From positions 1 through 36,015 of the forward strand of contig CAOKQK010000032.1 of NCBI GenBank assembly GCA_948470905.1: a stretch of DNA of 36,015 bases, read 5' to 3'. Both the position numbers and the translations under genes were made by a program. Positions 31,185-34,846 of this stretch are shown one piece after another. The DNA is from an uncultured Lachnospiraceae bacterium (lineage in GTDB: Bacteria; Bacillota; Clostridia; Lachnospirales; Lachnospiraceae). The notes under the pieces were generated by a model. The model saw only the letters and a list, made by a program, of their open reading frames with translations. It was not told the DNA's origin and ran no database searches. Positions within the stretch are counted from its first letter, which is position 1, and every line of letters begins with the position of its first letter.

Positions 31185-32063
31185 ATGAAAAAAATATGCA
31201 TGGTATGTCTGCTGGCAGCTGCGGCAGTCATATCCTTTATGATGACAGCCTGTTCTTCTGAAAAACCATTGGCGATAACATATATGGAATATGAAAAAAC
31301 TTTTTTGACATTGGAAGAAATGATCAAAAAAAGCGATGTGGCTATTGTCGGCGAATATGTGGAAACCATACGGCATGACAATTATATCGAGCAGAAATTT
31401 AAGGTAAAAGAGTGTCTTTACGGAGACGTGGCTGACAGCGAAATATATTTGTATTCAGGCACAGGCGTTGGTCATATTGAGGAAATAGATTACACATATG
31501 AGCTTGGCGCCGATGTTTACGAAGTGGGTATGGAATACATTTTAATTCTGGAAAGGGCGCAGTCTGTAATGTATGAACATGACAGGTATATGCAGTCTGC
31601 CGATGTATTCCTGTGCGATAGTGTCGGCGAGTATCGCATGTATTCCCAGAGGGTTGAGATCCCTGCGGAAGTCACCCTGAAAGATTATATCACTTCCACT
31701 TACGAGGCTGTATCACATCCGGCTGGCCAGGCTGCTTCTGTTTTATATGAAGATGAGATTGCCAGAATGATGGGAGAATCGGATTATGTTGGCAGGGTTA
31801 AAATTTTGGAACTGGTGAATGAGGGTAAGACCCATAACGGAAATGTTTACAGATGTTCTGTGGAGTCTTTGTCTAAAGGCGACGACCTTAATACCTATGA
31901 TGACGGTACGGTTTTGATCGTAATCCTTAAGAATACCGTAGAGACGGATAACAGTTATATCATTGGATTTTCTTCTGTGGACGAAGGCTCCCTGATTTAT
32001 ACACAATCCACAGATGCAAGCGTATATGATATAGATGACGAGAGGATATTCGACATTTTATGA
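31185..32063 (+). CDS. Lipoprotein of unknown function, partner of the metalloprotease
   Basis: 292 residues from the ATG at 31185, which is 8 bases from AGGAGG; the ATG two codons earlier (31179) is only 2 bases away and is less likely. A signal peptide ends in a lipobox-like MTA-C with C23. The mature part seems to hold two similar strand-rich halves, beginning with EEMIKKSDVAIVGEYVE and DEIARMMGESDYVGRVKIL. It is 15 bases after the metalloprotease stop, so the two are probably co-translated. It might be a substrate, inhibitor or surface partner of the protease; none is shown. The family is not recognised. Confidence 0.85.
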   Translation: MKKICMVCLLAAAAVISFMMTACSSEKPLAITYMEYEKTFLTLEEMIKKSDVAIVGEYVETIRHDNYIEQKFKVKECLYGDVADSEIYLYSGTGVGHIEEIDYTYELGADVYEVGMEYILILERAQSVMYEHDRYMQSADVFLCDSVGEYRMYSQRVEIPAEVTLKDYITSTYEAVSHPAGQAASVLYEDEIARMMGESDYVGRVKILELVNEGKTHNGNVYRCSVESLSKGDDLNTYDDGTVLIVILKNTVETDNSYIIGFSSVDEGSLIYTQSTDASVYDIDDERIFDIL

Positions 32064-32175
32064 TCCCCGTTGGCTTAGCGTAAAGCTGAACCAATGTCAG
32101 CCGCCAATAGCCTGAACAATTCAGCCAAGTGAACAAGGGGGGGTATAGATTGGAGCGTCTGGGTGAAAAAATCGG

Positions 32176-32204
32176 TTGACACATTTTTATAATTGGCGTA
32201 TCAT
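32176..32204 (+). promoter_or_regulatory. Sigma-A-type promoter for the trpBA leader
   Basis: TTGACA at 32176-32181, 17 bases, TATCAT at 32199-32204. The predicted start is near 32211, about 75 bases before stem I of the T-box. Confidence 0.85.
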
Positions 32205-32284
32205 ATTAACATGCAATTGAATAACGGAACAAACCGTAGATGTGGAGATAAAAACAGTTCGCGGGCCAGAGGGCATAAGCCTGA

Positions 32285-32702
32285 AGTCCTGCGTGGGCAC
32301 TTACAGAGAAACCGGAGGCTGAGAAAGGTTGGAGAGCAGGCTGTTAAATGGACCACGGAGGGCGCAGGGAACGAGACAGGGGTCTTTAGTATTCTGCGAC
32401 GTAAGGCACACGTCAGCTGCCAGGGATAAAATAGTACACTTTGTATGTGCAGCCTGAATTTATTCCCGCAGGCAATGAGTCATAAGTCCATGGGACCTTG
32501 ACGAATGTCGTGAGGGTTAAAAACCCCGTCAGCTTGCTGTGGGGTTTTTGATTATATTTCATGTGCATGATGCATTGTGTAGATAGTATCCTGAATGAGA
32601 GCACTTAGTTTAAGTGAAGCCAGGGTGGCACCGCGGGAAGGCAAGATTTGGCATCCCGTCCTTGACAGAGTAAAGATGTTTCTGTCTCGGACGGGATTTT
32701 TT
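32285..32702 (+). promoter_or_regulatory. T-box riboswitch for tryptophan, with unusually long linker
   Basis: Stem I: CCTGCG (32288-32293) pairs with CGCAGG (32363-32368); AACC and GGTT (32310-32313, 32327-32330) close a distal GGAGGCTGAGAAA loop. The likely specifier is TGG at 32349-32351, in the loop before CCAC and followed by A, which is the Trp codon. A small CACTT/AAGTG hairpin precedes the T-box AGGGTGGCACCGCG (32622-32635). Its TGGC (32626-32629) is complementary to an NCCA end with G discriminator, as in tRNA-Trp. The final terminator is ATCCCGTCC/GGACGGGAT (32653-32661, 32689-32697) with six T. Uncharged tRNA-Trp should prevent termination. About 250 bases separate stem I from the T-box, longer than usual. 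Confidence 0.93.
32519..32549 (+). terminator. Extra terminator-like hairpin inside the trp leader
   Basis: AAAAACCCC (32519-32527) pairs with GGGGTTTTT (32541-32549) and is followed by G. It lies before the T-box, so it could end transcription before the switch is made. An alternative pairing, GGGTT with AACCC (near 32513-32526), would sequester the left arm and act as an antiterminator. Confidence 0.75.
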
Positions 32703-32883
32703 GCGTGTTCCCCACAGGGGGACTGGGGTGAAGAAGGCGGAAACAGCAGGGCACGGCATGAGGGCAGAAAAGTTTCAGGAGGAAGGGCTGCCGCAAGCGG
32801 TGCAATGGGTCCCAAAAGCGCTGTATTATAAAAGAAATATGCCCGCGCTGAAAGAGGCAGGCGGGCAGGAAACGGAGATCAAA

Positions 32884-34068
32884 ATGAGCAAAGGACGTTA
32901 TGGAATACACGGAGGGCAGTATATTTCCGAGATATTGATGAACGAGCTGATCCATCTGGAGGAGTGCTATGAGCATTATAAAAATGATCCGGATTTTCAG
33001 AGGGAGCTGAGCACCCTTTTGAATGAGTATGCGGGCAGGCCGTCACTGCTGTATTATGCGGAGAAAATGACCAGAGATCTGGGCGGGGCGAGGATTTATT
33101 TAAAGCGTGAGGACTTAAACCACACCGGCTCCCATAAGATTAACAACGTGCTGGGGCAGGCGCTGCTTGCCAGGAAGATGGGTAAGACAAGGCTGATCGC
33201 GGAGACGGGAGCGGGGCAGCATGGGGTTGCCACAGCCACGGCGGCTGCGCTCCTTGACATGGAGTGCGAGATTTATATGGGCAGGGAGGATACACAGCGG
33301 CAGGCGCTGAATGTGTATCGCATGGAACTGCTGGGGGCGAAGGTGCATCCCGTCGCCACCGGGACCATGACCCTGAAGGATGCAGTAAGTGAGTGCATGG
33401 GGGAATGGACGAACCGGGTAAATGACACGCTGTATGTTCTGGGTTCTGTCATGGGTCCTCATCCTTTTCCCATGATCGTAAGGGATTTTCAGAGCGTCAT
33501 CAGCCGGGAGGCAAAAGGACAGATTCTGGAAAAAGAAGGAAAGCTGCCTGCGGCGGTAGTTGCCTGTGTGGGCGGCGGAAGTAATTCCATGGGCATGTTC
33601 TACCATTTTATAGAGGAAAAGGAAGTGAAGTTAATCGGCTGCGAGGCGGCTGGCAAGGGAGTGGACACGGCACTCACGGCGGCGACTATCGCCACCGGGA
33701 GCCTGGGTATTTTTCACGGGATGAAGTCCTATTTCTGCCAGGATGAGTACGGGCAGATCGCGCCGGTGTATTCCATTTCCGCAGGGCTGGATTATCCGGG
33801 TATCGGGCCGGAACACGCCTATCTGCACGATATCGGCAGGGCGCAGTATGTGCCTGTTACAGACGATGAGGCGGTGGACGCCTTTGAATACCTGGCACGG
33901 ACGGAAGGGATCATCTGCGCCGTGGAGAGTGCCCACGCGGTGGCGCATGTGAGGAAGATTGCGAAAGATTACAGCCCGGATCAGAGCATTATCATATGTC
34001 TCTCCGGGCGCGGAGACAAGGATGTGGCGGCAATCGCCAGATACAGGGGGGCGGATATTCATGAATAG
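32884..34068 (+). CDS. trpB: Tryptophan synthase beta chain
   Basis: 394 residues from the ATG at 32884. The frame is open upstream to a GTG at 32701, but TrpB proteins begin at [13 protein letters not shown] and GGAG lies six bases before this ATG. The PLP lysine is K85 in [10 protein letters not shown]; other signatures are [16 protein letters not shown] and the C-terminal LSGRGDKD. TrpB joins indole and serine into tryptophan. It overlaps trpA by 8 bases and is controlled by the T-box leader. Other trp genes are not in the window. Confidence 0.98.
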
Positions 34069-34846
34069 ACAGTTGGCAAAGGTATTTGACACACCGAACA
34101 AAAAGGCTTTTATCCCATTTCTGACGGCGGGGGATCCCGCACCGGAATGCACAGTGGAATTTATCCTGGAGATGGAGAGGGCAGGGGCAGACCTGATAGA
34201 AATTGGCATTCCTTTCTCCGACCCTGCGGCGGAGGGCGTTGTGATCCAGGAGGCGGGCATCCGTGCCCTTAAGGGCGGGATGACTACGGACGGGGCGTTT
34301 GATATCGTGCGCAGGGTCCGGGAGAAGTCGGATATTCCCCTTGCCTTCAGGACCTATGCAAACCCTGTCTTTCACTATGGCTATGACAGATTTTTTGCAA
34401 GATGTGAGGAGCTGGGTGTGGCGGCGGTCATCATACCTGACCTGCCCTTTGAGGAGAAGCAGGAGATGGAGGAGCCTGCAAAGAGGCACAGTGTGACGGT
34501 GGTATCCGTGATCGCCCCCACCTCAGAGAGCCGCATCCGGACTATTGCCAGCCAGGCGGAGGGATTTATCTATGTGGTGCCCTCCATGGGCGTCACCGGT
34601 GTCCGCAGCGAGCTCAAGACGGATTTGGGAGCCATCGTGGAGAGCATCCGGAAAGTGACGGATGTGCCCTGCGTCATAGACTTCGGCATCAGTACGCCAA
34701 AGCAGGCGGCAAAGATGGCGGCGGTGTCCGACGGCGCCGTCGTGGGCAGCACCATTGTGAAGATTATTGCGAAATACGGAGCGGAGGCGGCGCCGGAGCT
34801 GTACCGGTATGTCAGGCAGATGAAGGAAGCGGTTGCAGGGGGCTGA
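34061..34846 (+). CDS. trpA: Tryptophan synthase alpha chain
   Basis: 261 residues from the ATG at 34061, within the ATGAATAG overlap with trpB; a longer frame to 33959 lies inside trpB and does not fit the family. TrpA splits indole-3-glycerol phosphate to indole and glyceraldehyde-3-phosphate. The catalytic Glu is E47 ([11 protein letters not shown]). At the position of the catalytic Asp60 of the Salmonella enzyme there is a Glu (E58, in AAEGVVIQE). To my knowledge this substitution is common in clostridial TrpA. The overlap implies translational coupling and tight stoichiometry with TrpB. Confidence 0.97.

Follow-up and report, generated by a model that had tools for sequence, protein, structure and literature searches.

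A probably mobile palindromic repeat in the stem III loop of a tryptophan T-box leader from an uncultured Lachnospiraceae bacterium

The tryptophan leader and the genes behind it

The window discussed here, by which I mean the whole stretch of 36,015 nucleotides analysed from an uncultured Lachnospiraceae bacterium, carries on its forward strand the genes trpB (32,884 to 34,068; TIGR00263, 622.5 bits) and trpA (34,061 to 34,846; TIGR00262, 272.7 bits), both above the cut-offs of their families, and upstream of them, at 32,211 to 32,702, a leader with the anatomy of a tryptophan T-box. It is preceded by a sigma-70-like promoter, TTGACA-17-TATCAT (32,176 to 32,204, forward strand), with 11 of 12 matches, purely a match to consensus. 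The specifier TGG (32,349 to 32,351), read from the sequence, agrees with the trpB and trpA that follow, and AAATGG is present in all 29 related leaders that were fetched (one from each of 29 genomes, the best matches among the 109 further genomes of the genus that match 32,160 to 32,720), as is the T-box sequence GGTGGCACCGCG. The T-box bulge TGGC (32,626 to 32,629), within GGGTGGCACCGCG, finds its pairing partner in the GCCA of tRNA-Trp; by reading of its sequence, the host tRNA-Trp has the anticodon CCA, a G as the base after the acceptor stem (the discriminator) and no CCA encoded in its gene, and the bulge matches this discriminator G in the TGGN pairing between bulge and acceptor end. 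The leader closes with a terminator (32,653 to 32,702), found by both a terminator scan and folding, in which ATCCCGTCC (32,653 to 32,661) pairs with GGACGGGAT (32,689 to 32,697) ahead of a T run. Specifier, bulge and final terminator had all been named in a first-pass annotation of this DNA, and all are confirmed from sequence.

The Rfam T-box model RF00230 aligns over its full length (model positions 1 to 219) with 32,274 to 32,666 of the forward strand at 27.5 bits (E 4.8e-4), where gathering requires 93, and at that threshold Rfam returns no match in the window; the alignment leaves model positions 148 and 149 separated by 171 nt of inserted sequence. A low score alone does not exclude the leader from the T-box class, because just three of the 11 T-box matches of this genome stand above the RF00230 cut-off.

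The trpE family (TIGR00564) has no match in the assembly (89.9% complete) versus matches in 14 of 14 control genomes; the trpBA genes here may serve the use of indole only, and a missing contig could also account for the absent trpE. If indole use is indeed their only task, a lower ceiling on their expression could be tolerable. Only two of the 29 related loci hold trpB, most of the related T-box leaders fetched not having it behind them.

A repeat of two hairpins

Inside the leader lies a dispersed palindromic repeat of 95 nt (32,459 to 32,553, forward strand), recognized from its blast copies and scoring 84.0 bits with a covariance model of the repeat, the 26th of 108 model matches in this genome. 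Its consensus reads TTTATTCCCGCGrGCAATGAGYCAAG, a variable hairpin, TTGRCGAATGCCGCGAGGGTCAAATACCCC, a loop and GGGGTATTTGAYT, and it is drawn as a left hairpin (32,465 to 32,516; CCC.GC..GCA..GYCAA / TTGRC..TGC.GC.GGG, with a variable tip) supported by the covariation of helices 1 and 2, followed by a right hairpin (32,517 to 32,551; AAAAACCCC/GGGGTTTTT) supported by sequence, fold and the covariation of helices 3 and 4. The left hairpin holds an invariant CAATGAG/CGAATG internal loop (ATGA/GAA, in the region of 32,475 to 32,478), which I take to resemble a kink-turn (UGA/GA).

The right hairpin is the one that the first-pass annotation had singled out as a terminator-like structure for which a T-box has no need, and in this it was correct: AAAAACCCC (32,519 to 32,527) and GGGGTTTTT (32,541 to 32,549) are 100% complementary, lie about 75 nt upstream of the T-box and, folded alone, reach -15.0 kcal/mol with a T5 tail. 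A simple terminator scan gave the final terminator only, the internal hairpin probably being missed because of the bulged U in its stem.

Both hairpins are supported in an alignment of 32 copies (those whose core does not exceed 106 nt, among 70 with a clean right end, the other 38 having longer inner hairpins), where 98.2% of 883 cells are paired and two-sided changes occur in six pairs. The covariation score of 0.142 stands against a shuffled mean of 0.071, none of 500 shuffles reaching it and slid versions of the structure scoring far lower. Both comparisons are generous to the structure: it was drawn from the same sequences, giving it an advantage over slid versions, and relatedness among the copies inflates its result against the shuffles. 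The covariance model of the repeat was built from these 32 copies, eight of them from this genome, the copy in the leader included.

The tail of the right hairpin is less constant than its stem. A T5 tail follows it in 20 of 29 matches from this genome (GTTTTT in 17, TTTTT in two, ATTTTT in one), and among 122 matches from other genomes the tail is GTATTT in 47, GTCTTT in 23 and GTTTTT in three, with 23 unparsed; with tails elsewhere being mostly TATTT or TCTTT, a U-tract terminator is not a conserved property of the repeat, and on the sequences compared the conserved part of the right hairpin is its stem, not the U tract. At several loci (L044, L048, L052, L055, L070 and others) the right hairpin is enlarged, as it often is, by a second palindrome (GCAGCTTGCTGCGCATCAAGCTTGATACCCCG...), and the repeat family therefore comprises several architectures.

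Copies, edges and the site in the leader

At E up to 0.001 the model finds 108 matches in this genome, on both strands, a count for which 150 of 1,760 first-look candidates were scored and of which the weakest members, near 35 bits, are less certain. A blast of 32,430 to 32,590 against the same genome returns 83 pieces (E up to 10), which include reverse-strand matches of the palindrome to itself. Searched against 138 genomes of the genus, the T-box portions of 32,160 to 32,720 match related leaders, and bases 300 to 394 of the query match other sites in this genome and elsewhere. Inspection of 30 copies places 24 between predicted open frames, three near contig edges and three inside open frames, the latter being heuristic frames of 104 to 144 codons that may not be genes. 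Two copies flank a tRNA-Met/tRNA-Val pair (G000:C69:3386-3953), and the copies at L056 and L067 share flanks beyond the repeat (..CTTCGTCA.CT.CACAAGTTATTTTCGGA..), as if nested in another repeat.

Beyond the genus, the repeat occurs in 136 of 397 genomes of the family, drawn evenly and including this one, and in 119 of 334 genera, and a sample across the class has it in seven of 391 genomes, six of them within the family, again including this one; stricter filters and the few candidates scored per genome make all of these counts lower bounds. The seventh (G752), outside the family, is weak, with five matches and a best E of 5.0e-5. An exact core pattern has at least 108 matches in the genome collection, the 80 matches listed carrying titles of the Lachnospiraceae type apart from one plain 'bacterium'. 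A search of the plasmid collection gave no match. Rfam has nothing above threshold for the copy in the leader, nor does a second copy give any match up to E 0.2; PyrR aligns at full length with both tested copies at 19.2 and 22.6 bits against 54 (E 5.7 and 0.31) and was treated as chance, as were rnk_pseudo and anti-hemB in the leader's copy and six others in the second, all far under their gathering scores. A literature search at the level of titles and the beginnings of abstracts met no description of the repeat or of an insertion in a T-box stem III.

The edges of the copies are sharp. Over 109 copies the left edge reads TTTAT (T.87, T.97, T.93, A.95, T.98), and this edge formed no part of the search expression, which did contain the right-end motif TTGA[CT][TA]; beyond both edges no strong base preference is seen (at most.42), and none of the 109 copies is flanked by direct repeats. 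Multiple dispersed copies with sharp ends and without target duplication, set beside a fixed pentanucleotide (TTTAT, whether as target or as element sequence), are what would be looked for in palindrome-associated elements of the PATE type, which lack a transposase, have palindromes close to their ends and do not duplicate the target (PMC3119063); IS200/IS605 elements go in on the 3' side of a particular tetra- or pentanucleotide, likewise leaving the target unduplicated (PMC7290912). The outer pairs of the right hairpin, GTCAAA/TTTGAC, would be a candidate guide sequence.

A transposon with the same ends was sought among 30 Y1 transposase loci (the one of this genome and 29 others from the genus, from 62 match rows), where the only common stretches were two 11-nt matches (E 0.83), which I attribute to chance. 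The single Y1 match of this genome (G000:C39:32019-32375, L210) has an in-frame TGA and adjoins an IS200-like hairpin, its ends unrelated to the repeat, and TnpB (PF07282) has no match in the genome. Of the 138 genomes of the genus, 49 have a Y1 match and 39 a blast match of the repeat, and two of them (G003 and G005) hold the repeat and lack a Y1 match. No autonomous copy, with a gene between repeat ends, was found in 108 contig stretches located by the exact core pattern, among the matches listed, the orphan ends in these stretches being diverged, truncated or at stretch edges; a distant LE/RE pair at one locus (L147) is by my reading a chance coding match.

In the leader, the repeat sits within an extended stem III (GGGATA ... 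TATCCT, 32,423 to 32,592, forward strand), folded both with and without it; the latter fold is one long hairpin (-24.5 kcal/mol) whose apical loop contains the insertion point. Stem III is short in the related leaders, typically GGGATATGATGGTATCCT, and none of the 29 has the repeat core near its T-box. They are 68-79% identical to the window over the matched stretches (for rows with long matches). The two loci that hold trpB are L018 (TrpB 89.6% identical) and L038 (83.8%), and the leader of L018, which lacks the repeat, agrees with that of the window up to GTACACTT and, by eye, again around ATAGTATC. Between these points the window is longer by some 130-135 nt, that is, by the 95-nt repeat and about 35-40 nt of palindromic flank, a difference that rests on reading both sequences, the alignment program having misplaced the stretch past the insertion. 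The palindromic flanks (32,442 to 32,458 and 32,554 to 32,575) lengthen stem III and are not accounted for by the repeat. An exact empty site from a close strain was not among the related leaders fetched. The other 10 T-boxes of this genome are free of the repeat core, and in the fetched loci no copy lies within 1,200 nt of a T-box motif, a search that T-boxes lacking the motif escape. Prompted by this leader and by L047, a preference for insertion into hairpin loops was tried over 108 copies and dropped, the means equalling those of shuffled flank pairs; with 12-nt flank arms two copies fall under -14 kcal/mol versus 0.07 expected, and single cases of hairpin-loop insertion may be real.

How the repeat may act and what it resembles

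The firmest ground is provided by the anatomy of the T-box, by how many copies the repeat has and where they end, by the lack of it in 29 related leaders and by the covariation of its two hairpins. Upon this I would build a reading in which I have considerable confidence, namely that a class I tryptophan T-box governs trpBA and that a probably mobile, non-coding palindromic repeat sits in the apical loop of its lengthened stem III. By analogy with IS200/IS605-type elements and the non-autonomous elements derived from them, the repeat would have been inserted beside a TTTAT-like site, and stem III would tolerate it because it lies at the tip. Because the copy in this genome ends in GGGGTTTTT, RNA polymerase would meet, some 75 nt ahead of the T-box decision, a strong hairpin and a U5 tract, and a share of transcripts would then end there whatever the charging of the tRNA, lowering the maximal expression of trpBA and not adding a regulated step; to this last part I would give an even chance.

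The main alternative to a lowered ceiling is a neutral insertion, with the tip of stem III accommodating a hairpin that causes no appreciable termination. Its apical-loop position, the intact specifier, T-box and terminator, and the rarity of the T5 tail in the copies of other genomes all fit, but the strong stem of this copy, with TTTTT after it, does not, and I regard neutrality as rather unlikely. Doubtful to a greater degree is the notion that the repeat is not mobile DNA, being instead a structured RNA with a function, or a portable terminator, that cells keep and ordinary duplication has multiplied. Two covarying hairpins, the frequent position between open frames and the T5 tails of 20 of 29 local copies would suit such a role, yet the copies lie on both strands among unrelated neighbours with the sharp TTTAT left edge, their occurrence is patchy (136 of 397 genomes), T5 is nearly missing elsewhere (GTTTTT in three of 122), and no Rfam family rises above threshold, the best weak match being PyrR.

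The first-pass annotation had itself offered a second attenuation step, in which the internal hairpin and a mutually exclusive GGGTT/AACCC pairing would together act as a switch placed in series with the T-box, and had asked for covariation in both structures. Both pairings can be drawn and the hairpin is stable with its T5 tail, but the answer on covariation is split: the hairpin covaries within the repeat family, and GGGTT/AACCC shows two-sided change in none of its four pairs over the 32 copies, no better than shuffles. The same sequence recurs at many unrelated sites of the genome, the other 10 T-boxes do without it, and its presence in none of 29 related leaders is the lack of conservation that the annotation had named as telling against its own proposal, which I consider very improbable. 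The annotation's other suggestion, a vestige of tandem T-boxes prompted by the loose likeness of AGGGTTAAAAACCCCG to a T-box sequence, is practically out of the question, for AGGGTTAAAAACCCCG is the junction between the repeat's two hairpins, present also in copies away from T-boxes, and 32,050 to 32,900 gives a single RF00230 match even at E up to 10. Judged from these comparisons, the internal hairpin is not a tandem T-box, nor is it a second attenuator conserved among relatives.

Returning to a mobile repeat in stem III, a wider and more tentative picture can be sketched, in which an unnamed family of single-strand-type mobile palindromes of about 90-155 nt, present in roughly one in three of the genomes sampled from the family and apparently without a resident transposase of its own, has in this genome had its right hairpin shifted to a T5 tail, such that each insertion might be a ready-made terminator on both strands and the one in the T-box stem III loop might reset trpBA expression. 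What matters more generally is that a riboswitch leader can be altered when a short structured repeat lands in a loop that tolerates it, that terminator-like hairpins within leaders may be repeats and not regulatory parts, and that the mover of a repeat family found in so many genomes is a searchable question.

Set beside T-boxes as presented in TBDB (PMC7778990), this leader has in common with them the specifier, the TGGN bulge fitting the tRNA discriminator, the antiterminator/terminator and the downstream amino-acid biosynthesis genes, and differs in that its stem III loop holds a 95-nt repeat that brings along a terminator-like hairpin; from RF00230 it differs by a score far under gathering. 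In its edges the repeat resembles a PATE, and it is a candidate member of that group: with PATEs and IS200/IS605 elements (PMC3119063 and PMC7290912) it shares near-terminal palindromes, no room to encode a transposase, no target duplication and a short fixed left-edge sequence, but no related IS200/IS605 element was found in its own genome or at the fetched Y1 loci. It resembles the small mobile repeats (SMR) of Haloquadratum in being about 100 nt long and present in tens of copies or more without target duplication and with no known mover (PMC3119063), and it is like the REP/RAYT repeats in being palindromic and present in tens of copies or more (PMC8266576 and PMC3733652, the latter giving REPs as 20-40 bp). 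It differs from both SMR and REP/RAYT in having two different hairpins in place of terminal inverted repeats, and from REP/RAYT also in that no RAYT is seen to be linked to it here.
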